NCBI GenBank assembly: GCA_004153385.1
Contig: SDAL01000003.1
Location: 124,001 to 188,000 of the forward strand
Origin: Paracoccaceae bacterium
GTDB taxonomy: Bacteria; Pseudomonadota; Alphaproteobacteria; Rhodobacterales; Rhodobacteraceae
Reading direction: 5' to 3'
Length of the DNA: 64,000 bases
Part shown: positions 23,436 to 41,289 of the stretch, piece by piece
Numbering within the stretch: position 1 is the first letter of the stretch
How the letters are laid out: the number at the start of each line of letters is the position of its first letter
The notes under the pieces: model-generated
The model's database searches: none
What the model was told of the DNA's origin: nothing
The model's input: the letters and a program-made list of their open reading frames with translations, nothing else
Program-made: the position numbers and the translations under genes

Positions 23436-23441
23436 CCGGCG

Positions 23442-23467
23442 GCAGGGCGGCGCGCGCGCCGCCCTGC
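23442..23467. terminator. 26-bp perfect palindrome, likely operon terminator
   Basis: Bases 23442-23467 form a perfect GC-only inverted repeat apart from one A-T pair (arms begin GCAGGGCGGC), six bases after the aldehyde dehydrogenase stop. It would make a very stable hairpin. There is no T tract, so it may act as a stem that stops RNA decay or polymerase with factor help. Confidence 0.6.
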
Positions 23468-24148
23468 GATCTGGGGGGTGATGTCGCGCGCAGAGGCCGC
23501 CGTGGCAGAACTGTCGGGATCCACCGCGTTGAAATACGCGATTTCTTCTGGTGTCGGGGCATCACATGGCCATGGGGCCGGAATGGCGCGTGGGGTACGG
23601 GTGTGTGGGGTACGGGTGTGTGGCGGCAAGCGGCCCGACCGGTCTTTCGCGCAATACGCAGTGGCTTGATATCCGTTTGTGGGTAGCAGGTGCGATGGTT
23701 TTACAGCCAAAGGCACACCTGTATCGGGCCTGATCCGGAACCTGCCCGAAGTCCGGTCTGGTCGGCCTGAAGATATATCTCGGGCAGGTCGCGGGCCGCG
23801 GTGCGGAAATGTTTCGCTTTTGGGATCACGTAGGACCACGCCGCGTGTTTTCGCAAAACCGATATGATGTTCATATCCACGATACTGCCCGTTTGTTGCC
23901 CGTGCCCGCCGGTATGGGCGACAGCGCACTCACATCCGCAGTAACGGCCAGCAGATCGATGCGCCCGGAATGTCGGGTGTGCGTTGGATAAACGCCTGCA
24001 TGGTATTGCGGCCGATCATATCCGGTGCAGTGACACAGGCCGCCGCGCTATTTGGCCCGCAAGGTCGATGCCGTCATGCATGGTTCTGTGATGGAGCAAC
24101 GCGGGTGTGACATCCTGCGCGCGCTCTTTCATAAATGCCGGTTTACAG
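23468..24148. other. Decayed DNA without an intact gene
   Basis: No open frame here has a credible start, ribosome site and protein-like composition. On the minus strand, 23701-23880 reads as a plausible protein piece (for example IISVLRKHAAWSYVIPKA and FRTAARDLPEIYLQADQT) that continues upstream only after a frame change (MQAFIQRTPDIPG near 23970-24010). This looks like the remains of a minus-strand gene; the family was not recognised. A perfect 15-bp tandem repeat lies at 23591-23620. Confidence 0.5.
23591..23620. repeat. Perfect 15-bp tandem duplication
   Basis: TGGGGTACGGGTGTG occurs twice without a gap. It lies in decayed, non-coding DNA and looks like a slippage product. Confidence 0.8.
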
Positions 24149-24241
24149 TGCCGGACGGACCGGTATTCCCAAAGGCGTGATCGACATCCTGACAGGTCGT
24201 CCTGAGGTCATTGGCGAGGCCCTGACCCAAAGCCCGGGCGT
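24149..24241 (+). pseudogene. Short fragment of a succinate-semialdehyde dehydrogenase-like gene
   Basis: About 90 bases here match the middle of the intact gene at about 22571-22663 with only a handful of substitutions; the encoded text is GIPKGVIDILTGRPEVIGEA against GIPKGVINILTGRPEVIGEA in the parent. The match fades near 24149 and stops at 24241, exactly where the converging minus-strand gene ends. No start, catalytic residues or flanking coding sequence are present, so it cannot be functional. It is either a partial duplication or the last trace of a second, closely related copy. Confidence 0.8.
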
Positions 24242-25875
24242 CATGTCAGGGGGCGCGGGGCGAGCTTGTGTATTCCGCGTGGACGAAAGGCGAAGGCATC
24301 GGGTTGGCCCAGAACGCTGGCTGCCGTGTGCACAACCGACAGCCACATCTCTGTCCCCTGCAATCCCGGCGGATGACCGTTGGCGAAGGCGATGCCGCGG
24401 CCGGTTTGCCACATCGATGCTACGCGGGCGATCAGGTCGCGGGCGATAGTTTCGGCCTCTTGGCGCCGGTGATCGCACTGGCGCAAACACAGCCACAAAG
24501 GATGGATCGTGTCGAGCAGATTGCAGGCCGTTTCGGTTGCCCCGTGAAAGCCGTTATAGGCGCGGTAATTGGCCAGTACCGTGTCTATCGCGGCCTTTGG
24601 GCAGGGAACCGGTCGTCCGAACTGGGCATAGCTGCCTCGTGTCAGCCGGTAAAACCCGTTGACGGCCAGCAATGCCCCCTGATCGCCTGTGGCGGGCCCC
24701 CACAGACCGGTGGCCTGATCGACATTCAGCGCAAGCCAGCCAAACAAAACCTCTGGGGTGCGCGCGCCGCCAGAATGTCGCGCGTTCAGATGTGCGGCCG
24801 TGGCGATTGCATCGACGGTTGCGCCCGCGCCCCATGCATTGTCGTGCCATGGCAGCGCTTCCAGCCACGCGCACAGATCTGCGGCGTCAAGCTCGACGGC
24901 CTGCACGCGGTAGGCCGGCGTGCAGCCTAGACAGCGCAACGCCCCCTCAACCGCCAGCACGTTATAAAGGGCAATCGGATCGTCGCGCAGGGCGCCCCCC
25001 TTGGTCGGGGGGCGGTCGGGGTCGGGAAACAGGCCGCTGACCGGATCCTGGGCGCGGATCAGGGTGTCTATGGCTTGTGGTTTGTCAGGCAACATATCAA
25101 GACCGTCACAGGCGGCGGCAATCTCGATTGCGTCGCACAGGTGGCGCAGCGCAGGTCGCGGTGTGCCGCTGGCATCGCACGACAGATACCCGCCCTGTTG
25201 TGTGCGGCAGGCAGCCAAAACATCGGGCCATTGCGCCGTTACCGTGCGGTTGAGCCTGTCGAGCGCACCATCAGGGGCGGCGATCTGCGGCGGGCTTGCG
25301 GCATTCGTGCGCATTTTCAGGACGCGGGCCGGCACCCCTCCCGCAACCGCCATTGCGGGGATATGTCCGCGCACCACCGCACCCGCCGCAATCACCGCAC
25401 CGTTTCCGATGCGCGCACCATCCAGCACGACCGCATTGGCCCCGATCCACACATCATCCCCGATATCGATGCCTTGGCTGACCAGCGGCTGCGAGCGTAT
25501 CGGAACATCGGTCTGCTGCGTGCCATGATCGAACCCCACCAAGGTTGCATGGGACGCGATGCGCACATCGTTGCCGATCGTGATTTTGCCCGACAGGCAG
25601 GCATAGGGGTTCACGCTGCAATCGTCGCCAAAAGCCAGATCACCGCGCAACAGCGCCTGCGCCGCGATCCACGAGCGCGCGCCCAGACACAAGGTATCGC
25701 ACAGCACGACGGCCCCATCCGCGACAAAGGCGGTAGGGTCGATCTTTGCGCCTGCGTGGCGCACCAGATCATCGCACCTGCGGCGATGGGCGGGGGCCTT
25801 GATATCGGCGGCGGTTGCGGTCCATGGCATCCAAGAAATGCGGCGGGTCCGAAAGGCTGTGTCGTCAACGGTCAT
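24241..25875 (-). CDS. Fusion protein: hexapeptide-repeat acyltransferase + alpha/alpha-toroid-like domain
   Basis: A 544-residue protein with two parts. Residues about 45-200 show the left-handed beta-helix of hexapeptide acyltransferases (ITIGNDVRIASHATLVGF, IDIGDDVWIGANAVVLDG, AVIAAGAVVRG) with the candidate catalytic His in GFDHG and the typical close GGVPARVL. The remaining 330 residues are helical with repeated GLW/GGF and HxDNAW-type segments (LPWHDNAWGAGATVDAI, TGLWGPATGDQGALLAVNG), like the alpha/alpha toroids of glycan-processing and terpenoid-cyclase-like proteins. ATG at 25875 is the first one giving a normal N-terminus. It is the last gene of the uronide operon, 435 bases after a binding-protein gene. 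An acetyl transfer to, or recognition of, an oligosaccharide is inferred. Confidence 0.75.
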   Translation of the reverse strand: MTVDDTAFRTRRISWMPWTATAADIKAPAHRRRCDDLVRHAGAKIDPTAFVADGAVVLCDTLCLGARSWIAAQALLRGDLAFGDDCSVNPYACLSGKITIGNDVRIASHATLVGFDHGTQQTDVPIRSQPLVSQGIDIGDDVWIGANAVVLDGARIGNGAVIAAGAVVRGHIPAMAVAGGVPARVLKMRTNAASPPQIAAPDGALDRLNRTVTAQWPDVLAACRTQQGGYLSCDASGTPRPALRHLCDAIEIAAACDGLDMLPDKPQAIDTLIRAQDPVSGLFPDPDRPPTKGGALRDDPIALYNVLAVEGALRCLGCTPAYRVQAVELDAADLCAWLEALPWHDNAWGAGATVDAIATAAHLNARHSGGARTPEVLFGWLALNVDQATGLWGPATGDQGALLAVNGFYRLTRGSYAQFGRPVPCPKAAIDTVLANYRAYNGFHGATETACNLLDTIHPLWLCLRQCDHRRQEAETIARDLIARVASMWQTGRGIAFANGHPPGLQGTEMWLSVVHTAASVLGQPDAFAFRPRGIHKLAPRPLT

Positions 25876-26310: not shown

Positions 26311-27570
26311 TTAGTCCCCGAGCAGCGGTGCGACACCCTCATTCATCTGTGCGATCCCGTCCTCGATCGACACATTCTCTGTCATGATCAGATCATGGGC
26401 GCGGTTCAGGATCAGTTCGATCTCGGCGGCCTTGGCATTGACCGGCAGTTCCAGATAGGTCTGGCTGGCACGCAGGGCCGCACGGCTGTTATCGTCTTGC
26501 GGGAACCCGTCGGAGCTGGCGATCATTTCCAGCACCGTATCATCGACCAGCGCCGGCAGAACACCCGCCTTGGCCACAACGGCCGCACCTTCGGGGCCAG
26601 CCGCCCACCGCACAAACTCCAGCGCCGCCTCGCGGTGGGGCGAGTTGCTGTTCACCCCCAGTGAAGTGACTGTGGCCGCTGTGGTGCCCGCCGCCACGCC
26701 TTCGGGATGGGGCAGGCTGACAATGCCCCAGTTATCGGCCAGAGATTCGCCCGAATTCACTTTATCGATCTGGGTGCCGATAAACCACGATCCCATCGGC
26801 AACATCGCCACCTGCTCGTTATAGAACGGGCCCGAGTAATGCATGGCGGAGGTTTTCAGCGACGCATAGGTTTGCACAATGCCGTCCTGTTGCAAGGCCA
26901 GCGCCCGTTCGTACCACGGGGAAAGGAAGGAATAATCCTGCGCAATCAACGTATGTTGGCCGTCCTGAATACCGGGCAGCTGCACGGTGGAACGCCAGAT
27001 ATGGTTATGCGTGCCATAGACCTTGTTGGGACCAAAGCCCGTGGTCATCTCGCGGGCCACATCATCGTATTGGGCCCATGTCATATCATTTGTAGGATAG
27101 TCCACACCGGCTGCGTCAAACAGATCCTTGTTGTAATAAACCACCCAGATATCGGCGCGGAACGGCAGACCATAGAGCGCGTCATTCACGCTCAGCTCGT
27201 CGATCAGCCCGCCATAGGGGGCGGGGTCAACAGGGGGATCCAGCGCCTCGCTCAGGTTGACCAGCGAATTGGTGCGCACCAGTTGGGAATAGCTGGGAAT
27301 GTCCTTGATTGTCACGATATCAAGGTTTTCCGCGCCACCTGTCAGCTGCGTCATCAACATCTGTGGATAATCGGCCGAGCCAAGATCGGTGTATTCAATC
27401 GTCACATCGGGGTTTTTGGCGTGGTATTCTTCGGCCAGCGCGCGAAAGAACGGGGCCGCGTCCAGATCCCACAGCGCCCAGTTCAGCGTGACGTTATCGC
27501 CTTGGGCGTGGGCGCTGCCTGCGGCCAGCAGGGCGCCGATTAACGTGGTGGATTTCAGCAAGCTGTTCAT
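26311..27570 (-). CDS. Extracellular solute-binding protein family 1 (carbohydrate ABC importer), copy 1
   Basis: A 419-residue periplasmic sugar-binding protein. A Sec signal peptide (MNSLLKSTTLIGALLAAGSAHA, cleavage after AHA) precedes the mature domain with the usual family 1 features (NLDIVTIKDIPSYSQL, WVVYYNKDLFDAAGVDYP). A strong GGAGGAGA ribosome site precedes ATG. It is clearly a paralogue of the next gene: long identical runs such as the YYNKDLFDAAGVDYP block, EMTTGFGP and WYERALALQ are shared. It binds an oligosaccharide, probably one ending in an unsaturated uronic acid, judging from the GH88 and lyase neighbours. Confidence 0.92.
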   Translation of the reverse strand: MNSLLKSTTLIGALLAAGSAHAQGDNVTLNWALWDLDAAPFFRALAEEYHAKNPDVTIEYTDLGSADYPQMLMTQLTGGAENLDIVTIKDIPSYSQLVRTNSLVNLSEALDPPVDPAPYGGLIDELSVNDALYGLPFRADIWVVYYNKDLFDAAGVDYPTNDMTWAQYDDVAREMTTGFGPNKVYGTHNHIWRSTVQLPGIQDGQHTLIAQDYSFLSPWYERALALQQDGIVQTYASLKTSAMHYSGPFYNEQVAMLPMGSWFIGTQIDKVNSGESLADNWGIVSLPHPEGVAAGTTAATVTSLGVNSNSPHREAALEFVRWAAGPEGAAVVAKAGVLPALVDDTVLEMIASSDGFPQDDNSRAALRASQTYLELPVNAKAAEIELILNRAHDLIMTENVSIEDGIAQMNEGVAPLLGD

Positions 27571-27611
27571 GGGGTCTCCTCCTCCATTTTCAGTATCTGG
27601 TTGGCTGCGCG

Positions 27612-28889
27612 TTACTCCACGAGCGGTCCGATCTGGCGGTTCATCTGTGCGATACCGTCCGCGACCGAGGTGCTGGCGCTCATGATGGCATCGTGGCCAC
27701 GGTTGAGCATCAGCTGGATATCGGCGGCCTCGGGGTGGTAGGGCATTTCGATGAGGGTGTGGGCGGGGCGCAGGGCCTCGCGGCTGGCCGGATCGTCGGG
27801 AAATCCCGGCTGTGCGGCGATGATCGCGATGGCGTCATCGCTCAACAAGGCCGGAAAATTGGCGGTTTTGGCCACCACTGGCGCGCCTTCGGGACCGGCG
27901 ACCCATGCGACAAAATCCATGGCCGCCGCGCGGTTGGCAGAGTTTGCATTCACCCCGAGCGCGGTGACCTGCGAGGCGGTGGTGCCAGCGGGCACACCCT
28001 GTTCATGGGGGAAATTCACAATGCCCCAGTGCGCCGGGCCCCACTGCGCCGGTTGTGTCGTATCTGCCGCTTGCTGCAACATCTGGATACCCACAAACCA
28101 TGATCCCATTGGCATCATGGCCACCTGAGCGTTGAAAAACGGCCCCGAATAATGGGTGTTGGATGCCTTCAGCCCGCCATACTCCATTGCCACCCCGTCG
28201 CTTTGTAAGGCAAGGGCGCGCTCATACCACGGCTGTAGATAGTCGTAATTGCCGTCAATCGCGGTATGGCTTCCATCAAGGATTGCGGGCAACTGCACGG
28301 GCGAGCGCCATGTATGCAGATGCATCCCATAGACCTTGTCGGGGCCAAAGCCCGTGGTCATTTCGCGAGCGGTCGCATCGAATTGCGCCCATGTCATATC
28401 GTTTTTCGGATAGTCTACGCCGGCTGCGTCAAACAGATCCTTGTTATAGTAGACCACCCAGAAATCGCTGCGAAACGGCAGCGCAAACAGCCCGTGATCC
28501 AGATGCAGCGCGTCGCGCATACCAGTATAGCCCTCCGCGCGGGCGGGGGCTGTGTCTGACAGATCCACCAGCGCATTGGCGTGGACGAGCTGCGCATAAT
28601 TGGGGATGTTCTTGATGGTTACGATGTCGAGATTGTTCGCGCCACCGGCCATCTGTGTCATCAGCATCATCTCGTAATCCGCCGATCCAAGATCGGTCGC
28701 CTTGATCGTCACGTCGGGGTGGGTGCGTTCATAGGCCTCGATCAGCGGGGCATAATAGGCGGTTTTGTTCCAGTCCCATAATGCCCAGTGCAGGGTCACG
28801 GGGCGATCTTGTGCGGCGACCATGCCGGCAGTTGCCAGCGTGCCGAGAGCGGCGGCGAGCATGCCGGCGGATTTGACGGTGGGTGTCAT
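27612..28889 (-). CDS. Extracellular solute-binding protein family 1 (carbohydrate ABC importer), copy 2
   Basis: A 425-residue paralogue of the neighbouring binding protein, lying 41 bases upstream of it in the operon. Signal peptide MTPTVKSAGMLAAALGTLA with cleavage near VAA. The mature parts align throughout, with most differences in the ligand-facing loops, so the two copies may bind oligosaccharides of different length or decoration while sharing one pair of permeases. Its start overlaps the stop of the YesL-like gene (ATGA). Confidence 0.92.
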   Translation of the reverse strand: MTPTVKSAGMLAAALGTLATAGMVAAQDRPVTLHWALWDWNKTAYYAPLIEAYERTHPDVTIKATDLGSADYEMMLMTQMAGGANNLDIVTIKNIPNYAQLVHANALVDLSDTAPARAEGYTGMRDALHLDHGLFALPFRSDFWVVYYNKDLFDAAGVDYPKNDMTWAQFDATAREMTTGFGPDKVYGMHLHTWRSPVQLPAILDGSHTAIDGNYDYLQPWYERALALQSDGVAMEYGGLKASNTHYSGPFFNAQVAMMPMGSWFVGIQMLQQAADTTQPAQWGPAHWGIVNFPHEQGVPAGTTASQVTALGVNANSANRAAAMDFVAWVAGPEGAPVVAKTANFPALLSDDAIAIIAAQPGFPDDPASREALRPAHTLIEMPYHPEAADIQLMLNRGHDAIMSASTSVADGIAQMNRQIGPLVE

Positions 28890-29605
28890 CGCGTCTCCTG
28901 CGTGGCAGAAGCGGGCCGGCCTGTGGCACGAGAGGTCGCGTGGGCCTTGGCCGACAGGGCCGCAAATGTGACAAGCAGCACGCCGAGCGAAAAATTAGCG
29001 ACTGCCGGCAGGAAGACCGACACAGGATAGAACATCAGATGTGCCAGCCAAAGGGCAGCAACGGTGGCCATTGCGGCGGGCATATGCAGCGGGCTTGCCA
29101 ACGTGATGGCCGCCGCACGCCGGAGCAATCCGCCGCGCGTGTCCTGCGCATCCGACATCATCACCACCGCCTGCAATGCGCAGGCCGCGAAAAACAACGC
29201 CGCCGCCAGCAAGATGATCGCAGGGCCGGTATATATCACCGAATGCAGCGCCAGCTGGCCATAGATATAAACGCCATAGCCTGCGAGCCCCACTAGCAGG
29301 GCCGCCGCGCCCCCCAACCCGCTCGCCCGCCAGAACAAAGCCCTGAACGCCTGCATATAATCGCGCAGCAGATAGATCGGCTGGTCGCGCAACATCGCCT
29401 GCGCCACCCGTGCGCCTGCGGCATGGGCTGCGGGGATGGTGATGATCGCGAGACTGCTGATCGCGACCAGCAGGTTGAGCATGAAAAGATCCCATGCCTC
29501 GCGACGGATTGTGGCACCCAGCAAGGCCAGACCGGTTTTGGGCGGCATGTCCTTGGGAACACCCGGTCCCTCGCGGGTCCAACTGTCGCGCAGTCGTGCG
29601 ATCAT
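28886..29605 (-). CDS. YesL-like (DUF624) inner-membrane protein
   Basis: A 239-residue membrane protein with about five hydrophobic segments (for example DLFMLNLLVAISSLAIITIP, ALLVGLAGYGVYIYG and AIILLAAALFFAACAL). The LLRDYMQAFRALFWRASGLG segment and overall design match the DUF624/YesL family, encoded beside carbohydrate importers such as the Bacillus subtilis rhamnogalacturonan cluster. Its molecular role is not established; a helper of the importer is a reasonable guess. It overlaps both neighbouring genes by 4 bases. Confidence 0.78.
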   Translation of the reverse strand: MIARLRDSWTREGPGVPKDMPPKTGLALLGATIRREAWDLFMLNLLVAISSLAIITIPAAHAAGARVAQAMLRDQPIYLLRDYMQAFRALFWRASGLGGAAALLVGLAGYGVYIYGQLALHSVIYTGPAIILLAAALFFAACALQAVVMMSDAQDTRGGLLRRAAAITLASPLHMPAAMATVAALWLAHLMFYPVSVFLPAVANFSLGVLLVTFAALSAKAHATSRATGRPASATQETR

Positions 29606-30744
29606 GCCGCGGCCTGCGTGCCGGAGGGGGTGGGGGCGTAAAGAATAGACTCCTGCGTTTCAGGATCAAAAAGATGCAGATTGCTAAGATCGACGACCAG
29701 ATCCACCTGCTGATCATCGGCCACCGCATAGCGGGGCGACACGCGCGCGATGACATCCTGCCCGCCCAAGCGCATGTTCAGATGCATCTCGGCGCCCATC
29801 AGCTCCGACAATTCCACCTTTCCGCTCAGCTGTGCCAGATGGTCGGGATCAACCGCAGGGGGCGCGATTTCGTGGAAATCCTCTGGGCGGATCCCCAAAA
29901 CGACTTCGCGATCCAGATAGGGCGTGATGCGCGCGGCATCGAGGGTTGCAGGGAGCGGAAGCTCGGTGCCGTCAAACTCGGCCACAAACCCGGTCTCGCG
30001 CCGACGGATCGTGGCGGGCAGCATGTTCATTTGCGGCGCACCGATGAACCCCGCTACAAACATGTTTACCGGCTGGTCATACAGGCGCTGCGGCGTGTCG
30101 ACCTGAAGGATATGGCCGTCTTTCATCACGACGATCCGGTCGGCCATCGTCATCGCCTCGATCTGGTCGTGGGTCACATAGATGAAGGTGGCATCCAGCC
30201 GTTTGTGCAGTTTGGTGATTTCCGCGCGCATGGTGCCGCGCAGTTTGGCATCAAGGTTCGACAGCGGCTCGTCGAGCAGGAACACCTCCGGGTTGCGTAC
30301 CATCGCGCGCCCCAGTGCCACACGCTGGCGCTGCCCGCCAGACAGGGCCTTGGGCTTGCGGTTCAAAAGATGTTCGATGTCCAGAATGGCCGCCGCATCG
30401 CGCACCTTGCGGTCCACATCATCGGGCTTGGCCTTGCGCAGCGCCAGCCCGAAGGCCATGTTCTTATAGACCGTCATATGTGGATATAGCGCGTAATTCT
30501 GGAACACCATCGCGATGTCGCGGTCCTTGGATGGCACGTCGTTGACAAGATCCTCGCCGATATAAAGCTCCCCGTCAGAGACCTCTGCCAAGCCCGCGAT
30601 CATGCGCAATGTCGTGGATTTTCCGCATCCCGACGGACCGACGAACACCACGAATTCCTTGTCACGGATTTCCAGATCGATATCGTGGATCACGGTTGCC
30701 GCGCCGTAGGACTTTCGCAGTTTGCGCAGTGAAATGCTGGCCAT
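29602..30744 (-). CDS. Sugar ABC importer ATPase, UgpC/MsmK/MalK type
   Basis: A 380-residue ATPase that powers the sugar importer. Walker A GPSGCGKST (about 39-47), Q-loop QNYALYPHMTVYKN, signature LSGGQRQR, Walker B VFLLDEP and the switch His in YVTHDQIEAM are intact, followed by the C-terminal TOBE regulatory domain (from about residue 240, with VVLGIRPEDF). The CUT1 family is indicated. It overlaps the YesL-like gene and lies 24 bases after the GH88 gene. Confidence 0.95.
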   Translation of the reverse strand: MASISLRKLRKSYGAATVIHDIDLEIRDKEFVVFVGPSGCGKSTTLRMIAGLAEVSDGELYIGEDLVNDVPSKDRDIAMVFQNYALYPHMTVYKNMAFGLALRKAKPDDVDRKVRDAAAILDIEHLLNRKPKALSGGQRQRVALGRAMVRNPEVFLLDEPLSNLDAKLRGTMRAEITKLHKRLDATFIYVTHDQIEAMTMADRIVVMKDGHILQVDTPQRLYDQPVNMFVAGFIGAPQMNMLPATIRRRETGFVAEFDGTELPLPATLDAARITPYLDREVVLGIRPEDFHEIAPPAVDPDHLAQLSGKVELSELMGAEMHLNMRLGGQDVIARVSPRYAVADDQQVDLVVDLSNLHLFDPETQESILYAPTPSGTQAAA

Positions 30745-30768
30745 GGTTTTCCCCTCCCTGATCCGGTC

Positions 30769-31941
30769 TCACCAATAGGTGGACCAGCCTCCGTTAAGGC
30801 GCGTAAGCGCCTCCAGATAATAGTAATCGCCCCAAGAGACGCATTCATCGACCCCTTCGCCGCGGCAGGTGTTAAACGGGCTTTTCTTGGAATAGGTGCC
30901 GTGCAGCAACTGGCCGTTTGAGACATCGGGATCGGTTACGGCGTAATCACGCGCCAGACTGCCCAGCATCCGGCGGGCAAGATCGCGCCACGTCTCGGCA
31001 CTGTCCCCGCCCACCAGATCGGCCATTTCCAGAAGGCCACAGGCCACGATCGCGGCCGAAGAACTGTCGCGCGGCTCGTCGCCGTCGGTGAAGACCAGAT
31101 CCCAATAGGGGACCAGATCGGCGGGCAGTTTGCCCAGATAAAACGCAAGCAACCTATCGAACGTGTCGCGGTATTCCGGTCGCGGTTCGTAGCGGTAGCT
31201 GTAGGCCATACCGGTGATGCCCCATGCCTGACCGCGCGCCCATGCGCTGTCATCGCGATACCCCTGTTTTGTCGCCCCGTGCGAGGGCGCGCCGGTTTCG
31301 GGGTCCATGTAGAATGTGTGGAAAGTGGAATTATCAGGACGGATGGAATGCGCCAGTGTGGTACGCGTATGGGTCAGTGCGACCTCGCGGTAGGACGCAT
31401 CGCCGGTTTGTTCGCTGGCCCAGTAAAGCAGCGGCACATTCAGCAGGCAATCAATGATATAGCGGTATTCGTCGGGGTTGCCCTTGGCCCCCCATGCCTG
31501 CAAGAAGCCGCCCACGGGGCGATAGCGCTCCATCAGCTGGTCTGCGGCCAGCAGGCCTGCGCGGCGCCCGTCGTGACATTCCACCAGTTTCCACGCCGCA
31601 ACACAGGAGGGCTGGTATAAAAAACCCATATCATGATGATCGGTCGCGATCCGGTTTTCGATCCGGTGCAGGAAGGATTGCACCTGAATTTGCGCAGCGT
31701 GGCGAAACACGGGATCTTGGGTATGTTCGTAGGCCAGCCAGATCTGGCCCGGCCAGAATCCCGCCGTCCATTGATCATTGTCCACAGCCGGATAGAAATT
31801 CCCGACGCTGGAGTGGTTTTGCGCGCGGTAGGTGAACGCGGGCAGGTTGCGGCGTACCTGCGCGCAGGCCTGATCCAGGGCGGTTTGCAGTGCATCATCA
31901 TCCAGCGGCGAAACCGCCTCGATACGGGATTGAACTGTCAT
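30769..31941 (-). CDS. Glycoside hydrolase family 88 unsaturated uronyl hydrolase
   Basis: A 390-residue (alpha/alpha)6-barrel enzyme that hydrates the double bond of the 4,5-unsaturated uronic acid left by polysaccharide lyases, releasing it from an oligosaccharide. The two catalytic aspartates expected for GH88 correspond to D104 (HHDMGFLYQPS) and D164 (YIIDCLLNVPLLYW). No signal peptide is visible, so it acts in the cytoplasm on imported oligosaccharides. It lies three bases from the upstream permease gene. GH105 is related but the sequence and length fit GH88 better. Confidence 0.9.
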   Translation of the reverse strand: MTVQSRIEAVSPLDDDALQTALDQACAQVRRNLPAFTYRAQNHSSVGNFYPAVDNDQWTAGFWPGQIWLAYEHTQDPVFRHAAQIQVQSFLHRIENRIATDHHDMGFLYQPSCVAAWKLVECHDGRRAGLLAADQLMERYRPVGGFLQAWGAKGNPDEYRYIIDCLLNVPLLYWASEQTGDASYREVALTHTRTTLAHSIRPDNSTFHTFYMDPETGAPSHGATKQGYRDDSAWARGQAWGITGMAYSYRYEPRPEYRDTFDRLLAFYLGKLPADLVPYWDLVFTDGDEPRDSSSAAIVACGLLEMADLVGGDSAETWRDLARRMLGSLARDYAVTDPDVSNGQLLHGTYSKKSPFNTCRGEGVDECVSWGDYYYLEALTRLNGGWSTYW

Positions 31942-31944
31942 GGA

Positions 31945-32787
31945 TTATCCTTTCAGGCCGCTGGCTGCGACACCTTCCACAAAGAAGCGCTGCAGCGACA
32001 AGAAAACGACCAGCACAGGGATCAGCACCACGACAGAGGCCGCCATGATCAGCCCGTATTCCGACGAATATTGCGAGATGAACATCCGAAGTCCGATCTG
32101 GATCGTTTTCAGTTTGGTTTCGGTCAGGTAGATCATCGGCCCCAGAAAGTCGTTCCAGGTGGCGACGAAAGTAAAAATACACAGCGTGGACAGCGCGGGC
32201 TTGGACAAAGGCAGGATGATCCGTGCCCAGATCTGGTATTCGTTCATTCCGTCGATGCGCGCGGCCTCGCACAGCTCGTCAGGGATCGACATATAGAACT
32301 GGCGCATCAGGAACACACCGAAGGCCGTGAAGGCTTGCAGGCAGATCAGTGCCAGATGCGTATTGTTCAGCCCGAATTCCCGCATCATGATAAATTGCGG
32401 CACCATATAAACATGCCACGGCACCGCGATTGTGGCGATATAGCCCAAAAATAGCACGTTCTGATAAGGAAATCGCAGCTTGGCAAAGGCATAGGCCGCA
32501 AAGCTGGAGGTGAAGAGCTGCAGCGCCGTGACGATAACGGTGATCTTGGCGGTATTATAAATGAACCGCGCCAGCGGGATCTGGTGCCAGATCTCGACAT
32601 AGTTTTCCCAACGAGGTTGCGCAGGGATCCACTGGATGGGGAAGGCGAACACCTCGCGGTCGAGCTTCAGCGACGCCGACAGCATCCAGATAAAGGGCAA
32701 CAGCATCAGCGCGGTGATCGTCACGATCACAACATACAACAAGATGCGTGCCCCCGTGATCTTATGGCCCATGAATTTGATTTTCAT
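31945..32787 (-). CDS. Carbohydrate ABC importer permease, MalG type
   Basis: A 280-residue inner-membrane permease of the CUT1 class with six hydrophobic segments. The EAA coupling loop is visible as ELCEAARIDGMNEYQIWARIILPLSKPA (key motif EAARIDG). The C-terminus FFVEGVAASGLKG is the typical ending of MalG-like subunits. The ATG at 32787 is chosen because the reading frame upstream of it overlaps the other permease gene. It pairs with the MalF-type gene eight bases upstream. Confidence 0.93.
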   Translation of the reverse strand: MKIKFMGHKITGARILLYVVIVTITALMLLPFIWMLSASLKLDREVFAFPIQWIPAQPRWENYVEIWHQIPLARFIYNTAKITVIVTALQLFTSSFAAYAFAKLRFPYQNVLFLGYIATIAVPWHVYMVPQFIMMREFGLNNTHLALICLQAFTAFGVFLMRQFYMSIPDELCEAARIDGMNEYQIWARIILPLSKPALSTLCIFTFVATWNDFLGPMIYLTETKLKTIQIGLRMFISQYSSEYGLIMAASVVVLIPVLVVFLSLQRFFVEGVAASGLKG

Positions 32788-32795
32788 TCTGAACC

Positions 32796-33734
32796 TCAAT
32801 CTTCGCGAGTGAAACGGAATTGCACGACGGTGACCGCCAGCACGATCAGGAACAGCACCATCGCGACCATGCTGGCGTAGCCCAGATCCCACGAGATGAA
32901 CGCCTCGTTGTAGATATGATAGACCAGCACCAGCGTGGATGTGCCCGGACCGCCTTGGGTGATCATGAAGATCTGGTCGAAGACCTTGAAAGACTGGATG
33001 GTTAGCATGACCGACACGAAAAAGGTTGTTGGTGCCAGTTGCGGCACAGTGATGTGCCAGAATTTCTGCCAGCTGCTGGCGCCGTCCAGATCAGCGGCCT
33101 CATACAGATCGCCATTGATGCCTTGCAGCCCTGCCAGATAGATCACCATGAAATACCCGAGGTCTTTCCACACCCCGAAGAAAATCACGGTGACCATCGC
33201 CCAGGAACTGTCGGCCGCCCATCCGGGCAGGCTTTGTGGATCCACGCCTGCGGTATAAAGCAACATGTTCACCGGCCCCATCGCCGGATTGAAAAGCATG
33301 TTCCAGACCACTGCGACCGCCACAAGCGAGGCGACATAGGGGAAAAACATCGCCGTACGGAAGAAATTGCGCCCGATGATCTTTTCATTGAGCAATACTG
33401 CCACGCCAAGGGCAGCCGCCAGCGTAAGGGGCACGGAAAAGGCTGTGTAGATCAGCGTGTTCCACAGCGCCGCCTGAAAGGCTGAATCGTGAAACAACGC
33501 AAAGAAATTATCGAGGCCCGCGAACTGGATCGGATTTGATCCGTCCCAGTGCATGAACGCCAGCGCGAAGGCGAACAGAATAGGTCCGAGTGTGAAGATC
33601 ACAAAGCCCAGAAAATTCGGCGCGATAAACGAATAGGCGACCAGATTGGATCGGCGCTGGCGTTGCTTTTTGCTGAGCAGCGGACGTGCGCGCTGCTTCA
33701 CCGCAACATTGATGTTGGTGTTGGTGCTGGACAC
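32796..33734 (-). CDS. Carbohydrate ABC importer permease, MalF type
   Basis: A 312-residue CUT1 permease, first gene of the minus-strand operon. The coupling motif is YEAADLDGASSWQKFWHITVPQL (key EAADLDGA). A GTG start at 33734 is chosen because an unusually long purine run, GGAGGAGGAG at 33741-33750 (minus strand), lies six bases upstream; starting further upstream at 33803 would cover it. The promoter must lie in the 119-base divergent gap that also holds a 20-bp palindrome. Confidence 0.9.
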   Translation of the reverse strand: MSSTNTNINVAVKQRARPLLSKKQRQRRSNLVAYSFIAPNFLGFVIFTLGPILFAFALAFMHWDGSNPIQFAGLDNFFALFHDSAFQAALWNTLIYTAFSVPLTLAAALGVAVLLNEKIIGRNFFRTAMFFPYVASLVAVAVVWNMLFNPAMGPVNMLLYTAGVDPQSLPGWAADSSWAMVTVIFFGVWKDLGYFMVIYLAGLQGINGDLYEAADLDGASSWQKFWHITVPQLAPTTFFVSVMLTIQSFKVFDQIFMITQGGPGTSTLVLVYHIYNEAFISWDLGYASMVAMVLFLIVLAVTVVQFRFTRED

Positions 33735-33808
33735 GGGCGGCTCCTCCTCCTCCGTACCGGACACCCGCAATGCGGATGAACTTGTTGTATGCCTGTCTAT
33801 CATGTCAT

Positions 33809-33828: not shown

Positions 33829-33853
33829 TGAGTACCCAAGGAAGGTACGCCTG

Positions 33854-35671
33854 ATGAGCACACATGTACCGCCACAAATTCTGGGCGTGCCGATCACTCT
33901 TCCAGACCGGCCAAGTCCGGTGGATGTGATCGCGCCGCGCACGGATCGCGGCGTTTGGAGCGGGCTTTCGGATGACATAACCGGCGCACTTTTGGCACGT
34001 GGGCAGGCCTGCGCCGCCACTCCCGCGCCGCCGCTTCTTGCCCGTGATCTTTGCGCCTTCACCCGTGACGGGGATCGCGCCGGTTTCGAGGCTAAATATT
34101 TCGCCCGCCGCCGCCGCCTGAACGGGTTGGCAATGGCAGCACTGGCCGAAGGAACGCCGTGCTGGGGGCCTGATCTTGCTGATGCCGCGTGGCAGATATG
34201 CGAGGAAACCGGATGGCAGCTTCCAGCCCATAATGCCCACATACGCGGAGGAGTTCGCGCACCGCTTCCCGATCCTGACCGGCCTGTTGTGGATCTGTTT
34301 GCGGCCGAAACCGCCGCCCAGTTGGCTGTTCTGGCTGCAAGCGCGGGCGATCTGCTAGAGGCCTGCGCCCCAACCATCACGGCCCGCATCATGCGCGAGG
34401 TCGATATCCGCGTGATAACCCCTTACCTGACAGAAAAAATTTGGTGGATGGGGGACCTTGACGGCCCCACCAACAACTGGACCGTATGGTGCACGCAAAA
34501 TGTGATGCTGGCAGCACTTTGCCTGCCTATCGAGCCTGCGCGGCGCCATAGCGTGCTGGTGCGCGCGATTGCCAGCCTTGATACCTTCCTGCGCGAATAT
34601 CCCGATGATGGTGCCTGCGACGAAGGCGCGATGTATTACCGTCATGCGGGGCTGTGTCTTTGGGGCGCGCTCCATCTGCTGGAACAGATTGCGCCGCAAG
34701 ATGTGGCCCGTGTGTGGCGCCATCCCAAGATTCGAAATATTGCCGCCTATATCGAGGCAGTCCATATCGCAGACCGGACTTATGTGAATTTCGCGGATTG
34801 CCCCGCGCTCAACCCCCGTTGCACCCTGCGCGAGGTGCTGTTTGCACAGGCAACCCGCAACGACAGGCTGCGTGATTTTGCGTGCCGTGATGCTGGCGCA
34901 GATGGATGGGACGACCTGCCTGACGAAATCAACCTGTGGTATCGTGCTTTGCAAGCGCTGCACGGGTCGATGCTTGATGCGCCCTTGCCGCCCGCACCGC
35001 CAAAGCGCGACGCATGGTATCCCAGTGTCGGGCTTCTGGTTGCGCGTGACGATGTGTTCACCCTTGCCGTGAAGACAGGCCATAACGATGATAGCCACAA
35101 TCATAACGATACCGGCAGCGTCATCTTGTACCGCGGTGCGCGGCCTGTACTGATTGATGTGGGGGTGGGCACCTATACGGCCCGGACATTTTCGCCCGAC
35201 CGCTACCAGATATGGACGATGCAATCGTCATGGCACAATCTGCCCGGTTTCGGCGGTGTCATGCAGCAGGCGGGCAGGGAATTTGCGGCCCGCGATGTGT
35301 GTGTCAGGCGCGATCACCAGATAGCAGAAATCGAAATGGAGCTGGCAGAGGCATGGCCCAAGGCGGCGCGGCTGCACGGATATCACCGACGGGTGGCGCT
35401 GGAAAAGAACCGCCGGGTCGTGATCGAGGATCGCTACGATTGTGATCTGCCAGCCGAACTGTCGTTGATGTTCGCCGAACCGCCGCAGATCACGTCGCAT
35501 GGCCTTGTTTTACCACGCCTTGCCACGATCACTATCGAGGGGGCGGGAAAAATCCGCCTTGACCACAGGCCCTGTGTCGGGGATGCCCGGCTGGAACACT
35601 CCTGGCCTGAAGGGGTCTGGCGGGCCGTTATCCCTGTGCAGGGCACCCGCCTATGCCTGACCATTAACTGA
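33854..35671 (+). CDS. Heparinase II/III family lyase-like protein
   Basis: A 605-residue protein with an N-terminal helical toroid and a C-terminal beta-sandwich, as in heparinase II/III-type polysaccharide lyases. The C-terminal part has the typical HNDDSHNHNDTGSVILYRG segment, with residues expected to bind metal or substrate, then LIDVGVGTYT and SSWHNLPGF. No signal peptide is seen, so it probably cleaves imported oligosaccharides. ATG at 33854 follows AAGGAAGG. The start further upstream would overlap the operator region. Substrate (heparin, alginate, ulvan-like or other uronan) cannot be fixed from sequence alone. Confidence 0.85.
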   Translation: MSTHVPPQILGVPITLPDRPSPVDVIAPRTDRGVWSGLSDDITGALLARGQACAATPAPPLLARDLCAFTRDGDRAGFEAKYFARRRRLNGLAMAALAEGTPCWGPDLADAAWQICEETGWQLPAHNAHIRGGVRAPLPDPDRPVVDLFAAETAAQLAVLAASAGDLLEACAPTITARIMREVDIRVITPYLTEKIWWMGDLDGPTNNWTVWCTQNVMLAALCLPIEPARRHSVLVRAIASLDTFLREYPDDGACDEGAMYYRHAGLCLWGALHLLEQIAPQDVARVWRHPKIRNIAAYIEAVHIADRTYVNFADCPALNPRCTLREVLFAQATRNDRLRDFACRDAGADGWDDLPDEINLWYRALQALHGSMLDAPLPPAPPKRDAWYPSVGLLVARDDVFTLAVKTGHNDDSHNHNDTGSVILYRGARPVLIDVGVGTYTARTFSPDRYQIWTMQSSWHNLPGFGGVMQQAGREFAARDVCVRRDHQIAEIEMELAEAWPKAARLHGYHRRVALEKNRRVVIEDRYDCDLPAELSLMFAEPPQITSHGLVLPRLATITIEGAGKIRLDHRPCVGDARLEHSWPEGVWRAVIPVQGTRLCLTIN

Positions 35672-35685
35672 AGAACGGAGAGAAT

Positions 35686-36480
35686 ATGACACTCAGCTTG
35701 CATATCTTGAACAAAACTCACGCCGTGATAACCGAATGCAGCGCCGAGGGCGAGGTCGCACTGGTCTATGATGCCGCTTATGCCGAGGGCGATATGATTG
35801 GCGTGACCGCGCCTGCGGACACCTATCTGTGGGTCTGGCTGGCCTGCGGTCTGCCCCCTGCGCTGGTCTATGCACAGGGCGGTATGTTTTGCCTGCCGGT
35901 ACCTTTTGGCGCAACCGCGCAAACCTACAGCCCGCGCGCTTTTACCGGTGAAATGCATCGCCTTCAGGCGCGGATCGCGCGGCCCGAAGAGGTGACCGCC
36001 CGCCGCGATCTGGCGCTCAACCCCTATGACCACCACGCAAACAAAACCCTGTTCCCGCATGTATCGGCCAATGCCGAAACGCGCGGCGAGGCGGTGTTTG
36101 CCGCCCGCAATGCGATTGACGGCGAGGTCGCAAACGACAGCCACGGCTTTTGGCCCTACACGTCGTGGGGCATTGCCAAAAATCCAGAAGCGGCGCTAAC
36201 GCTCGATTTCGGGCGCCGCGTGACAATCGACGAGGTCGCCCTGACGATCCGCGCCGATTTTCCCCATGATGCGTGGTGGACCGGTGCAAAGATCACCTTT
36301 GACGGAGCCGAGACACAGACAGTCGAATTGCGCAAAACCGGGCAAAGGCAGGGGTTTGCTATCGCGCCACGGCAGGTATCGACGTTGACGTTGCACAGCC
36401 TGATCAAGGCGGATGATCCCTCGCCCTATCCCGCGCTCACCCGGATCGAGGCGATGGGGTGGGATACCCCTGACCGGTAA
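35686..36480 (+). CDS. Uncharacterised protein with C-terminal beta-sandwich (discoidin-like) domain
   Basis: A 264-residue protein with no signal peptide. The second half (about residues 110-264) with HVSANAETRGEAVFAARNAIDG, HGFWPYTSWGI, LTLDFGRRVTIDEVALTIRAD and LHSLIKADDPSPYPALTRIEA looks like a galactose-binding/discoidin-type jelly roll that holds carbohydrate. The first half was not recognised. A GGAGAG site precedes the ATG, and the gene follows the lyase by 14 bases, so it is in the lyase operon. A role in handling the oligosaccharide is inferred. Confidence 0.7.
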   Translation: MTLSLHILNKTHAVITECSAEGEVALVYDAAYAEGDMIGVTAPADTYLWVWLACGLPPALVYAQGGMFCLPVPFGATAQTYSPRAFTGEMHRLQARIARPEEVTARRDLALNPYDHHANKTLFPHVSANAETRGEAVFAARNAIDGEVANDSHGFWPYTSWGIAKNPEAALTLDFGRRVTIDEVALTIRADFPHDAWWTGAKITFDGAETQTVELRKTGQRQGFAIAPRQVSTLTLHSLIKADDPSPYPALTRIEAMGWDTPDR

Positions 36481-36551: not shown

Positions 36552-37283
36552 ATGAAAAATGCGAATAACGGAGCTGTCCGGCGCCCGGAGTCTCTCTCGG
36601 TGCGTGTCGAAACGGATCTGCGTCAGGCCATTTCCAGCGGTGAATTCGCGCCCGGTGACAAGCTGCCCAGCGAGGCGCAGCTGATCCGCTCGCATGGCGT
36701 CAGCCGAACGGTGGTGCGCGAGGCGTTGGCGGCTTTGCGACTGGACGGGCTGGTGGAGCCGCGTCAGGGGGCGGGGGTGTTTGTTCTGGACCCTCGTCTG
36801 TCACCTGACTCGGGCCGTCAGGTGGAGCGTGCGCGCCTCGCCTCGATCCTTGAAATCCTTGAAGTGAGAACACCGGTAGAAGTGGCCGCAGCCGGTCTGG
36901 CGGCGCTGCGCCGGTCGCCCGCGCAAGAAGAGCATATCCTTGATTGCCATGCCGCGTTGATGCGCTGCATAGAGCGTGGCGCGCTGTTCGGGCATGCCGA
37001 TTTCGCGCTGCATCTGGCGATTGCAGAGGCCACGAACAACCGCCAGTTCACCGAATTTCTGGAAAAATACGGCGATGCGGCGGTGCCAAAATCGCAGATT
37101 GTGACAGGCGATATCCCCGACAGTGAACGGCAATACCACGAACAGCTGGTGATGGAGCATCAGGCCATCGTGCTTGCGATTTCGCGCTGCGATGGTCCGG
37201 CGGCAGAGCAGGCGATGCGTGATCATCTGATCGGCAGCCAGACGCGCCACCGTGAATTGCTGCAATCGGACAGGCTGGCGTAG
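36552..37283 (+). CDS. GntR family regulator, FadR subfamily (FCD domain)
   Basis: A 243-residue regulator with an N-terminal winged helix-turn-helix (residues about 15-80: GEFAPGDKLPSEAQLIRSHG, SRTVVREALAALRLDGLVEP, QGAGVFV) and a C-terminal all-helical FCD effector domain (LEVRTPVEVAAAGLAA, HLAIAEATNNRQF, with metal-ligand type Asp/His). FCD regulators often bind sugar acids such as hexuronates or KDG. It sits at the end of the lyase operon, so it is a likely repressor of the uronide locus. Confidence 0.92.
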   Translation: MKNANNGAVRRPESLSVRVETDLRQAISSGEFAPGDKLPSEAQLIRSHGVSRTVVREALAALRLDGLVEPRQGAGVFVLDPRLSPDSGRQVERARLASILEILEVRTPVEVAAAGLAALRRSPAQEEHILDCHAALMRCIERGALFGHADFALHLAIAEATNNRQFTEFLEKYGDAAVPKSQIVTGDIPDSERQYHEQLVMEHQAIVLAISRCDGPAAEQAMRDHLIGSQTRHRELLQSDRLA

Positions 37284-38277: not shown

Positions 38278-39309
38278 TTATGTTTTCAGCGCGGCAGGTG
38301 GCGGGGTGCGGCGCACTAGGGTCGTTGATCCGCGCACCTGCAACGTGCCTGAAATCTCGGCATTGACCGGTGTGCTGTCGGGCGCACGCATCACGCGCAA
38401 CAGCCGCCGCACGGCTTCGGCCCCGATTTCATGGCGCGGCACGCGTATGGTGCTCAGCGCAGGTGCGGACATTTGCGCGGCGGGGATGTCATCGAAGCCG
38501 ATCACCGACAGATCCTGCGGCACCTGTCGCCCCAACGCGTTGGCCGCAGCGATGACACCAAGCGCGGCTGCATCGTTGCAGCATTGAACGGCCGTAATTT
38601 CGGGATGTGTGGAAAGCGCCGCAAGGGCCGCGCGAAACGCATCACCGCTGCGCATGTCCTCAAGCGCGATCTCGTAACTGCGATCAGGGGTAAGGCCCGC
38701 CTGCGCAAGCGCCAGATCGGCGCCCAGAAAACGGTCGCGCACCGGCAGGCGGCGATCATGGGTAAGGCGCAAAATATGCCGGTGCCCCAGATCCAGCAAA
38801 TGGCGGCAGGCGATATATCCACCACTGCGATTGGCAGCCGAGGCGCTGGAGACACGGCCCGTAAGATCCATTCCGTTGGCAATCACAACAGGGATATCAC
38901 AGGCCAGGATTTCTTCTGTCAGGGCGGGTTGATCGAGGCTCAGCAGCAAGATGCCGTGGCGACCGGTCCGGTCGGTGCCGCTCAGCAGGTCTGGCGGAAG
39001 GCCCGATTGCGGGTCCAGCAGCCGGACCCGCACGGCCACATTCAGATCGCGCGCCGTGCGGGTGATCCCGTCCAGAAGCTGGGTCTGGAAATCGGGCGCG
39101 TCGGCGGCATCGGTATCGATCGAGGATAAAACGGTCACGCAGGGTCGCGCGCGCTCTCCGGCCCAGCCAAGTTTATCGGCATGAACCAGCACGTCGCGGC
39201 GGCGGGCATCGGAAATTCCGGGCGCGCCGCGCAGCACCCGCGATGCGGTGCTGACCGACACGCCCGCCGCCGTGGCGATGGCCTGCAATGTGACGCGTTC
39301 AGCCGGCAT
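38278..39309 (-). CDS. LacI family transcriptional regulator
   Basis: A 343-residue LacI/GalR-type regulator. The N-terminal HTH (VTLQAIATAAGVSVSTASRV) and hinge are followed by the periplasmic-binding-protein-like effector domain, ending with the family motif VIGFDDIPAAQMSAPALSTI. The ATG at 39309 overlaps the end of the DUF2264 gene by 11 bases, so the two are coupled. The 17-bp palindrome at 41240-41256 ahead of the DUF2264 and GH2 genes is the best candidate operator. The effector is probably a mono- or disaccharide of this pathway. Confidence 0.93.
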   Translation of the reverse strand: MPAERVTLQAIATAAGVSVSTASRVLRGAPGISDARRRDVLVHADKLGWAGERARPCVTVLSSIDTDAADAPDFQTQLLDGITRTARDLNVAVRVRLLDPQSGLPPDLLSGTDRTGRHGILLLSLDQPALTEEILACDIPVVIANGMDLTGRVSSASAANRSGGYIACRHLLDLGHRHILRLTHDRRLPVRDRFLGADLALAQAGLTPDRSYEIALEDMRSGDAFRAALAALSTHPEITAVQCCNDAAALGVIAAANALGRQVPQDLSVIGFDDIPAAQMSAPALSTIRVPRHEIGAEAVRRLLRVMRAPDSTPVNAEISGTLQVRGSTTLVRRTPPPAALKT

Positions 39310-41191
39310 GTGCGCTCCAGCGGGCAGGATCGATGCCGTGGTGTTCCAAAAGGGCGCGCGCGGTCTGTGGCAAGTGGAACGGGGCGGGGGCTTGTGCGGG
39401 GTCGGGGGCGGCATAGACCGCGGTGCCAACCCAAGCGGTGCCCGGTGCAATATTGCCTTGGAGTTGCGGCAAAAGCGTGCGCGGGAAGCGCAGGTTGGTA
39501 TTGGGGGCTGCGCGGATCACGCGGCCTTTGCGGGTGCCGTCCAGATCCACGATCCGCGACAGGGCCGAACGGGTTTGCACATTGGCATGGCCTGTGGCCT
39601 CGTCGATCCAGCTTGGCGGAGTATGCGGCCCGTCACCGGTGCGATCCACGCTGAACCCTCCCTCGGCCAGTTGCAGGGGCCGGTCGGTGGTAATCCGGTG
39701 GAGCCGGACATGCCAGCCCTCGGGCCCCATATCCAGCCAGCTGTCCACGCGGATCCCCGTGCAGGGCTCCCATACGCCCCACGCCATACCTGCATCTATG
39801 CCTGCGCGGGTAATGGTTGCCCGCGACAGCCACTGCGCCCCGTCATGGCTGATGGCGATGCCGCAATCGACCGCGCGGCGTTCGGGGCGGTCGCCCCACG
39901 CATCCGATGCCATGGAAAATGCAAACGCCGATGAATAGGCAAAGCGCGCATATTTGGCATCATGCCCGCGATGTTCGCGCCCGTCCTGACCGCCGGTCAG
40001 CACCAGCGCATCACCGGCGCTGCGGCGCATGATGAACCCGCCGGTATCGGACACCACGCGCCCGCCCGGCAGATTTTGCGCAGGCTCCTCGTGGGCGGAC
40101 CAGAACGGATGGTCTTCGGGCAGCGCCAGTACCAGAAGCGATTTTAGCGCCCAATAGGGCGATCCGGGTGCATTATACCCCTCCGACATCATAAGGTTGG
40201 GATAGCTGTAGCCCACGCTTAGAACGCCGTCACGCTCGGCTATGGGTTGATCAGACCACCAGCGCAGGTGGCGCAGCAACAGGCCCTTGATCCTGCCCCA
40301 TGGCAAAACCTCCTCGTTGGCGAATGCGCAGGCCGCCCAGAACGCGCCTTGGGCAAAGCGGTAGGTCAGCGAGCGTCCGAACGGCACCGCCGCCCCGTCA
40401 TCGGCAAACCAGTGCTGGAAATCTTGCGCGAAATCATGTGCGCGGGCGCGGTAGCGGGCGGCGTAATCGGGGAATAGATCAGACGCGACCTGCGCCACGA
40501 TCAACCCGTAAAAATGCATCGCCATGGGGGTGTAATAATCCAGCTGATACCATTTGCCATCGCGGTAATAGCCGCCCTCAAGATGGAATTCCTCCAGCCG
40601 GTCCATCGCCGCGCGCGTGTCGGCCTCAGACCAGTCCTGCCCGACATGGCGCAGCGCCAGATTGACCAGAACACGGAAGAACAGCCAATTGTTATCAGCC
40701 ACCGGCTGGGTGTTGATGCGCCGCAGCCACTGCGCCAGCCGCGTTTTGGCGGTCTGTGACAATTGCTCCCAAAACCGCTCGGGCGCCAGCAGAAGGGCCA
40801 GCGACAGCCCCGCCATTTCGACCAGCCGCTGGTCATATGCGCCGGGCTCGCCCCAGTATTCAGGGTGGTCGGGGTCTGTGCCGTGATCAAGGCCTGTGGC
40901 CCAACCGGCGGCGTGGGTATGATCGAACCCGCCCGCAAGCAGTGGTGCAAGCCCCCATAGCGGGCGCGCAAAACTCTCCATCTCGGCGGCGGGGCTGGAA
41001 TAGTGAACGCCGCTTGCCCCCAGCCGGATACGCGCGCGCCCTTGCGACATATGTGGCAAAAGCGGTGCAATCAGATCTGTGGTCGCGCGCGCCAGATCGG
41101 TTCGGGTGCGCAAAGGGTTTGCGTACAGCGGGTTGGCCTGCGCCAGCGCCTTGGTTGTCGGGTCGAAATACCACGCTGCTTTGATCGCCAT
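39299..41191 (-). CDS. DUF2264 domain protein, probable cytoplasmic glycan-processing enzyme
   Basis: A 630-residue protein. The first 370 residues match the DUF2264 alpha/alpha-toroid (NPLRTRTDLARATTDLI, ESFARPLWGLAPLLAGG, NNWLFFRVLVNLALRHVG, GGYYRDGKWYQLDYYTPMAM, PFGRSLTYRFAQGAFWAACA), followed by a beta-rich C-terminal part. DUF2264 genes are often found in polysaccharide utilisation clusters; the fold resembles glycosidases and lyases but the reaction is not established. CAGGAG precedes the ATG. It leads a two-gene unit with the LacI regulator. Confidence 0.85.
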   Translation of the reverse strand: MAIKAAWYFDPTTKALAQANPLYANPLRTRTDLARATTDLIAPLLPHMSQGRARIRLGASGVHYSSPAAEMESFARPLWGLAPLLAGGFDHTHAAGWATGLDHGTDPDHPEYWGEPGAYDQRLVEMAGLSLALLLAPERFWEQLSQTAKTRLAQWLRRINTQPVADNNWLFFRVLVNLALRHVGQDWSEADTRAAMDRLEEFHLEGGYYRDGKWYQLDYYTPMAMHFYGLIVAQVASDLFPDYAARYRARAHDFAQDFQHWFADDGAAVPFGRSLTYRFAQGAFWAACAFANEEVLPWGRIKGLLLRHLRWWSDQPIAERDGVLSVGYSYPNLMMSEGYNAPGSPYWALKSLLVLALPEDHPFWSAHEEPAQNLPGGRVVSDTGGFIMRRSAGDALVLTGGQDGREHRGHDAKYARFAYSSAFAFSMASDAWGDRPERRAVDCGIAISHDGAQWLSRATITRAGIDAGMAWGVWEPCTGIRVDSWLDMGPEGWHVRLHRITTDRPLQLAEGGFSVDRTGDGPHTPPSWIDEATGHANVQTRSALSRIVDLDGTRKGRVIRAAPNTNLRFPRTLLPQLQGNIAPGTAWVGTAVYAAPDPAQAPAPFHLPQTARALLEHHGIDPARWSAHAG

Positions 41192-41256: not shown

Positions 41257-41289
41257 AATATTTTTCGTCTGGCAATGGGGGAGACGGTC

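Follow-up and report, generated by a model that had tools for sequence, protein, structure and literature searches.

Among the closest described systems are loci for the breakdown of glucuronate-containing glycans. According to the available text of its description, the chondroitin pathway of Bacteroides caccae PUL25 comprises a PL35 lyase, a GH88 enzyme, the hexosaminidase GH109 and a glucuronate dehydratase (PMC12269599). This dehydratase, BcGDH, is a beta-D-glucuronate dehydratase that turns saturated glucuronyl ends into unsaturated ends for GH88. Activity was absent from alanine mutants of ten residues in its active site; the authors caution that their test sugar, chondrosine, is turned over poorly (kcat/Km 0.54 per min per mM), and they attribute this to an amino group in place of an acetamido group (PMC12269599, available text). 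Haloarchaeal glycosaminoglycan loci have GH88, GH154, GH2 and an ABC importer in common with the locus studied here, as far as the available text describes them (PMC13260240). The word "acetyltransferase" is absent from the main text of the PUL25 paper as available to us, as are both "acyltransferase" and "acetyltransferase" from that of the haloarchaeal paper, yet Haloarcula sp. GH36 carries, beside its GH88 and DUF2264 genes, a gene that fuses an acyltransferase to an (alpha/alpha)6 toroid. No account of such a fusion was found in the open-licence literature, in line with a first-pass annotation of the present DNA, which knew of no described function for this two-part protein.

The window, a stretch of 64,000 nucleotides from a Paracoccaceae bacterium (contig SDAL01000003.1), follows the lyase, GH88 and dehydratase logic of PUL25 as described in the available text (PMC12269599), but with a PL33-like instead of a PL35 lyase, with ABC import and with the fusion protein. 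On the minus strand, two ABC permeases with predicted starts (F, 32796..33731, and G, 31945..32778; both PF00528) are followed by a GH88 unsaturated glucuronyl hydrolase (30769..31941, PF07470), whose closest relatives are unsaturated glucuronyl hydrolases of the glycosaminoglycan type (4e-107 to the solved UGL gbs1889), an ABC sugar transporter ATPase (29602..30744, PF00005), a DUF624/MusI-like membrane protein (28886..29605, PF04854; NF052431 under cut-off), ABC sugar-binding proteins B (27612..28889) and A (26311..27570; both PF01547, 58% identical to each other) and finally the fusion gene. The binding proteins thus stand in tandem at 26311-28889 of this strand, while the sister locus L019 has one only. 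Upstream, on the plus strand, lie a PL33-like heparinase II/III-type lyase with predicted start (33854..35671, PF07940), a protein with an F5/8 (discoidin)-like C-terminal part (35686..36480, PF00754 under cut-off) and a GntR/FCD regulator (36552..37283, PF07729 and PF00392). A LacI-type regulator with predicted start (38278..39309, minus strand; PF00356 with 37.2 bits against a cut-off of 27, and PF13377), a DUF2264 protein (39299..41191, minus strand; PF10022, 431 bits) homologous to the beta-D-glucuronate dehydratase (formerly GH154), and a GH2 glycosidase (41275..43521, plus strand; PF02836, PF02837 and PF18565) follow. The lyase is clearly homologous to the solved PL33 structure 8r73 (1.5e-69 over 507 residues), and inspection by eye revealed no signal peptide on it. 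The PL33 enzymes characterised so far take hyaluronan, heparosan, chondroitin sulfate and gellan as substrates, according to the available text of one report (PMC11848413). Together, the ABC importer, lyase, dehydratase homologue, GH88 and GH2 point to a likely route for glucuronate-containing oligosaccharides.

The first-pass annotation had placed the fusion gene after a GH88 gene and two sugar-binding proteins, at the end of a uronide operon. The gene is indeed the last of that series. However, a gap of 435 bases lies between the stop codon of the last binding protein (from 26311) and the likely start of the fusion gene, so membership of the same transcript remains a conjecture. A simple pattern scan saw no minus-strand terminator- or promoter-like site within this gap; over positions 23400-34000 the scan returned 5 promoters against 4.6 expected and 14 terminators against 7.9 expected (sd 2.6). 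The locus is also larger than had been described, as it takes in the PL33-like lyase, the GntR and LacI regulators, DUF2264 and GH2, up to 43.5 kb.

The fusion gene itself (24241..25875, minus strand, stop included) encodes 544 residues in one open frame; the frame could be extended to 26088, and the start sites of homologues fall near the same ATG. Residues of about 37-190 (25306..25767, minus strand) form a left-handed beta-helix acyltransferase domain, which matches the Hexapep profile PF00132 (E 3.8e-16; 58.5 bits against a cut-off of 27, with the best stretch at residues 137-170) and whose best sequence relatives in the PDB, namely DapD-type, LacA and maltose acetyltransferases, are all beta-helix proteins, with alignments inside residues of about 37-195. 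In the HMMER alignment to 1kqa, His117 (codon 25525..25527, minus strand) falls on LacA position 115, which we take to be the catalytic histidine of LacA. A histidine stands here in all 83 aligned rows, which comprise the window, 79 of 80 homologous loci (L083 being left out), the related genome G109, a Haloarcula and a Streptomyces; in this alignment the rows from the 80 loci end one residue short. With LacA, Maa and WbbJ-type O-acetyltransferases the domain thus has the beta-helix, the His at LacA-115 and matching final coils in common, but the window protein is fused to a toroid and its NCBIfam matches, as far as listed (25 of 49), lie far under the cut-offs. All of these listed matches fall in the helix half, none reaches the curated cut-offs for LacA, Maa, WbbJ, NeuD, DapD or others (best 85.4 bits against 243), and the top name is WbbJ O-acetyltransferase. 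An AlphaFold2 model of the whole protein as a monomer (30 homologues) reached a pLDDT of 82 and a pTM of 0.65; pLDDT under 50 at residues 186-200 suggests a loose linker between the halves. In the Pleomorphomonas homologue (L040 9329-11047) the beta-helix has 12 additional residues, a repeat of the adjacent coil.

Residues 203-544 (24244..25269, minus strand) are confidently modelled on their own as an (alpha/alpha)6 toroid, a barrel of helical hairpins with twelve helices (pLDDT 93.5, pTM 0.92). Hence both parts proposed in the first-pass annotation are borne out, the acyltransferase by profile match and the toroid by a confident structure prediction. Both folds are of known kinds, but the toroid shares no more than its fold with the protein prenyltransferase (GGTase/FTase) beta subunits, GH88, GH76 and sugar 2-epimerases that, with complement thioester domains, are its top Foldseek neighbours, with weak E-values (at best 1.0e-3 and, in the search with the toroid on its own, 3.9e-3). 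No sequence relation was found to the PDB (no solved relative by sequence or profile at E 5 and E 10), to Pfam (no significant match for 30 members scanned, best E 0.045) or to the window's GH88 family; nor did we find a sequence match to a known unrelated enzyme, which had been named as grounds for abandoning the proposal. Three candidate identities were rejected. The toroid is not a copy of GH88 (hhalign probability 0.4 %) or of DUF2264 (0.9 %), and its likeness to protein prenyltransferases is one of fold, as the prenyltransferase toroid PF00432 matches 2 of 30 fused members at best E 0.045 and the stand-alone toroids described below at best E 0.03, both under the curated cut-off. As judged from the model, the domain is a toroid fold without a close solved relative.

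Twelve polar or aromatic toroid residues (D248, Y304, W348, D355, N406, Y409, R410, R413, C451, D455, T508 and E509) are each identical in all 83 rows, which span archaea, actinobacteria and alphaproteobacteria. Conservation and the order of these residues along the chain suggest a putative polar site, probably a pocket. The earlier description of the toroid as Trp/Gly/His-rich is half right: the invariants counted are mostly Asp, Glu, Arg, Tyr, Trp, Asn, Gly and Cys, and among the positions counted the sole invariant histidine is H536 near the C-terminus, with H458 in 82 of the 83 rows. Since both H117 and the toroid residues are conserved, we argue that both domains work in every genomic context, the Rhizobium clade with a lone fusion gene included.

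A search of species-level genomes with the toroid only returned 419 matching stretches, and the fusion gene is common among Hyphomicrobiales; the best 80 of the 419 represent 80 distinct loci. The helix half is present in 80/80 of these, and in 79 the two parts share one frame, among them L035, truncated where its contig ends and beginning with residue 51. In Marinicella sp. W31 (L083 9446-11040) two overlapping frames hold one part each, which may reflect decay or assembly error. The fusion also occurs in G109, another genome from the same family as the window, in two genomes of the phylum sample (G230 and G433, with the helix half confirmed in both) and on one plasmid each of Haloarcula, a haloarchaeon, and Streptomyces; the plasmid records covered here label the gene mostly "acyltransferase". 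A frame joined by sequencing error, another possibility raised at the outset, is rejected by the single frame in 79/80 loci and by the fusion in other phyla. Judged by these sequences, the fusion is a real, old and conserved architecture.

Counted by BLAST to the window's genes and to those of one Devosia locus with identity thresholds, in flanks of up to 10 kb and sometimes shorter, which makes all numbers lower bounds, the best 80 of 419 loci hold DUF2264 in at least 40, ThuA in at least 30, a 2-hydroxyacid dehydrogenase in at least 28, an Opp-type transporter in at least 25, GH88 with ATPase and permeases in at least 19 and a PL33-like lyase in at least 16. None of eight marker genes used in the pattern counts occurs in the flanks of 30/80 loci, 27 of which belong to one Rhizobium/Rhizobiales branch. 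The window-type operon recurs in A. vitis (lyase, permeases, GH88, ATPase, DUF624, binding protein, DUF2264, fusion), while a Devosia/Martelella type combines an Opp importer, DUF2264, hydroxyacid dehydrogenase, fusion and ThuA. On the Haloarcula plasmid the fusion neighbours an IclR gene, GH88 and DUF2264, and a span of 7 kb takes in the fusion together with GH88 and DUF2264. On a quick tree, in which long branches are joined, including the window with L019 and Haloarcula with Streptomyces, GH88 company changed (gains or losses) at least 5 times and the three contexts together 8 times. Plasmid pRL12 of R. johnstonii 3841 carries a lone fusion gene at 586 kb and, about 120 kb away at about 708-718 kb, a locus with PL33, GH88 and DUF2264, which shows that the link between fusion and uronide genes outlasts the operon.

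The most constant partner is DUF2264. All 40 loci without it in their flanks come from genomes that carry it elsewhere, so that it is found in 80/80 fusion genomes (best 80 of 419). As the fusion genomes are mostly of one order, this co-occurrence is partly a matter of kinship and inflated. In the phylum sample DUF2264 exceeds its cut-off in 20/398 genomes, the 3 fusion genomes among them; in the class sample in 5/367, where the window genome is the sole fusion genome; and among relatives in 5/195, with both fusion genomes among the 5. Both genes are missing from the 15 listed genomes that share the window's genus. Among the relatives G109 alone is informative, its agreement given the window having a chance of about 4 in 194; in this genome DUF2264 sits in an Opp/hydroxyacid-dehydrogenase locus that is not close to the fusion gene. 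The Haloarcula plasmid carries DUF2264 as well, and a search of the Streptomyces plasmid alone did not find it. Because DUF2264 occurs without the fusion in 17 of 20 genomes of the phylum sample, the fusion looks accessory to DUF2264 and not the reverse.

The window's DUF2264 protein matches the solved BcGDH (9o4u) at 2e-25 and also a relative. The ten BcGDH residues probed by mutation (E74, R78, N176, N177, W178, F181, Y229, R285, Y289 and Y354) all have counterparts of the same letter in an alignment read by hand (E72, R76, N167, N168, W169, F172, Y220, R273, Y277 and Y339). Given the family homology and these ten retained residues, the protein is a homologue of BcGDH and a putative glucuronate dehydratase. 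Proteins filed under DUF2264 may thus often be uronate dehydratases, in archaea (L110) too.

On sequence evidence, the toroid family extends beyond the fusion. In the 398 phylum genomes, a profile search found 3 fused proteins (window, G230 and G433) and 11 stand-alone proteins of 368-427 residues, in whose loci the helix half was not found; stand-alone and fused toroids are related in profile comparison (E 3.7e-16). A glycosyltransferase GT2 homologue adjoins the stand-alone gene in 11/11 cases and a GT4 homologue in at least 4/11 of these short loci, and Pfam identifies the glycosyltransferase neighbours in L105 and L106. A more distant stand-alone toroid of 386 residues, from G153 of the class sample, lies in an alphaproteobacterial operon (L118 4253-10414) of the order binding protein, permease, permease, toroid, GH2; it was caught by the profile only (E 1.8e-5 per genome), and a BLAST search at E 1e-3 that used the window toroid as query missed it. 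Its place in a sugar locus and that of the others beside glycosyltransferases indicate that the domain can occur without the acyltransferase. An alignment of seven sequences including stand-alone proteins keeps counterparts of W348, G351, G390, C451, D455, R470 and G494. No Pfam or NCBIfam family was found for the toroids of the stand-alone loci (L092-L102, the wider L103-L106, and L108). The family, for which no name in either database was found, is thus fused in bacteria and archaea and stands alone elsewhere, and it is tied to a newly recognised route, the removal of uronic acid by dehydration and GH88.

The analysis shows the two folds of the fusion protein and their conserved union, the conservation of His117 and of the toroid residues, and the gene company with the homology and active-site match of DUF2264. 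This supports in part the first-pass suggestion of an enzyme that would recognise an oligosaccharide end with its toroid and acetylate it, or the reverse. Since its relatives keep company with genes of acidic-sugar breakdown, the protein probably handles a so far undescribed step of that breakdown. Specifically, we propose a trimeric, acetyl-CoA-dependent sugar O-acetyltransferase of the uronide-oligosaccharide route whose toroid holds or processes that sugar, a reading for which we see the chances as evenly balanced. It would be a cytoplasmic two-domain enzyme. Its beta-helix half would trimerise, bind acetyl-CoA at the subunit interface, use His117 as general base and acetylate a hydroxyl, less likely an amine, of the imported sugar or an intermediate, and the toroid would offer the conserved polar site that holds, and possibly also processes, the same sugar. 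It would work with the PL33-like lyase, with GH88 and, most of all, with the DUF2264 homologue, which would turn saturated glucuronyl ends into GH88 substrates. Should acetyl transfer be a step of this route, it would supply a missing reaction in the breakdown of glucuronate glycans by soil and plant-associated bacteria.

The protein could instead run a side reaction like that of LacA, which serves disposal: sugars that the pathway cannot use would be acetylated for exit from the cell, and the toroid would merely broaden or position sugar binding. LacA, with its aligned His, and maltose acetyltransferases are among the closest solved relatives, and the fusion gene stands at the operon end in the window and alone in many Rhizobium. 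Yet twelve toroid residues invariant from archaea to actinobacteria and alphaproteobacteria exceed the needs of a loose binding surface, and the presence of DUF2264 in 80/80 fusion genomes (best 80 of 419) also speaks against disposal, which we regard as unlikely. Equally unlikely in our view is that the toroid itself cleaves or rearranges the glycan, for instance in a hexosaminide step, with acetylation by the first domain preparing the substrate. The L118 operon indicates that a sugar locus can use the domain in the absence of the acyltransferase, although that protein was reached by profile only; GH88, GH76 and 2-epimerases are among the Foldseek neighbours, but the hhalign results above give no profile link to GH88 or DUF2264. 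Among the acids D248, D355, D455 and E509 just D455 is kept in 7/7 rows including stand-alone proteins, which argues against a catalytic toroid. The published chondroitin locus adds the hexosaminidase GH109, according to the available text (PMC12269599), and neither the window locus nor the annotated A. vitis locus has a gene that name or profile marks as a hexosaminidase; however, GH2 could cover this step, and the genes typed in the 80 loci are a part of the total.

The glycosyltransferases beside the stand-alone toroids are a pointer to synthesis rather than breakdown, and as such count against our preferred reading, as do the 30/80 loci with none of the marker genes in their flanks, the separate places of fusion gene and DUF2264 in G109, the share of kinship in the co-occurrence and the Streptomyces plasmid, on which DUF2264 was not found. 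If the glycosyltransferases are given more weight, together with WbbJ O-acetyltransferase as the best NCBIfam name, far under its cut-off, and with the lone fusion gene of many Rhizobium, the fusion would modify the cell's own surface glycan and be linked to uronide genes by habit only. No glycosyltransferase occurs among the genes typed or annotated in the window, A. vitis, Haloarcula and Martelella loci, and we consider this the least probable of the explanations. A further reading, to which we give little credence, joins the fusion protein more tightly to its DUF2264 partner. Here the toroid would grip the non-reducing glucuronyl end, and acetylation, for example of O4 or of a neighbouring amino sugar, would prime the substrate for DUF2264, which would then expel acetate, or meet its preferred acetamido neighbour, instead of slowly expelling water, and pass the product to GH88; acetylation might likewise precede cleavage. 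The constancy of DUF2264 and the dehydratase's poor turnover of a non-acetylated test sugar fit such a scheme. On the Streptomyces plasmid (L111 6887-20187) the fusion lies amid GH28, an apiosidase-like protein, a BNR-repeat protein and Opp genes, neighbours which suggest that pectin-type uronides may be the target there.
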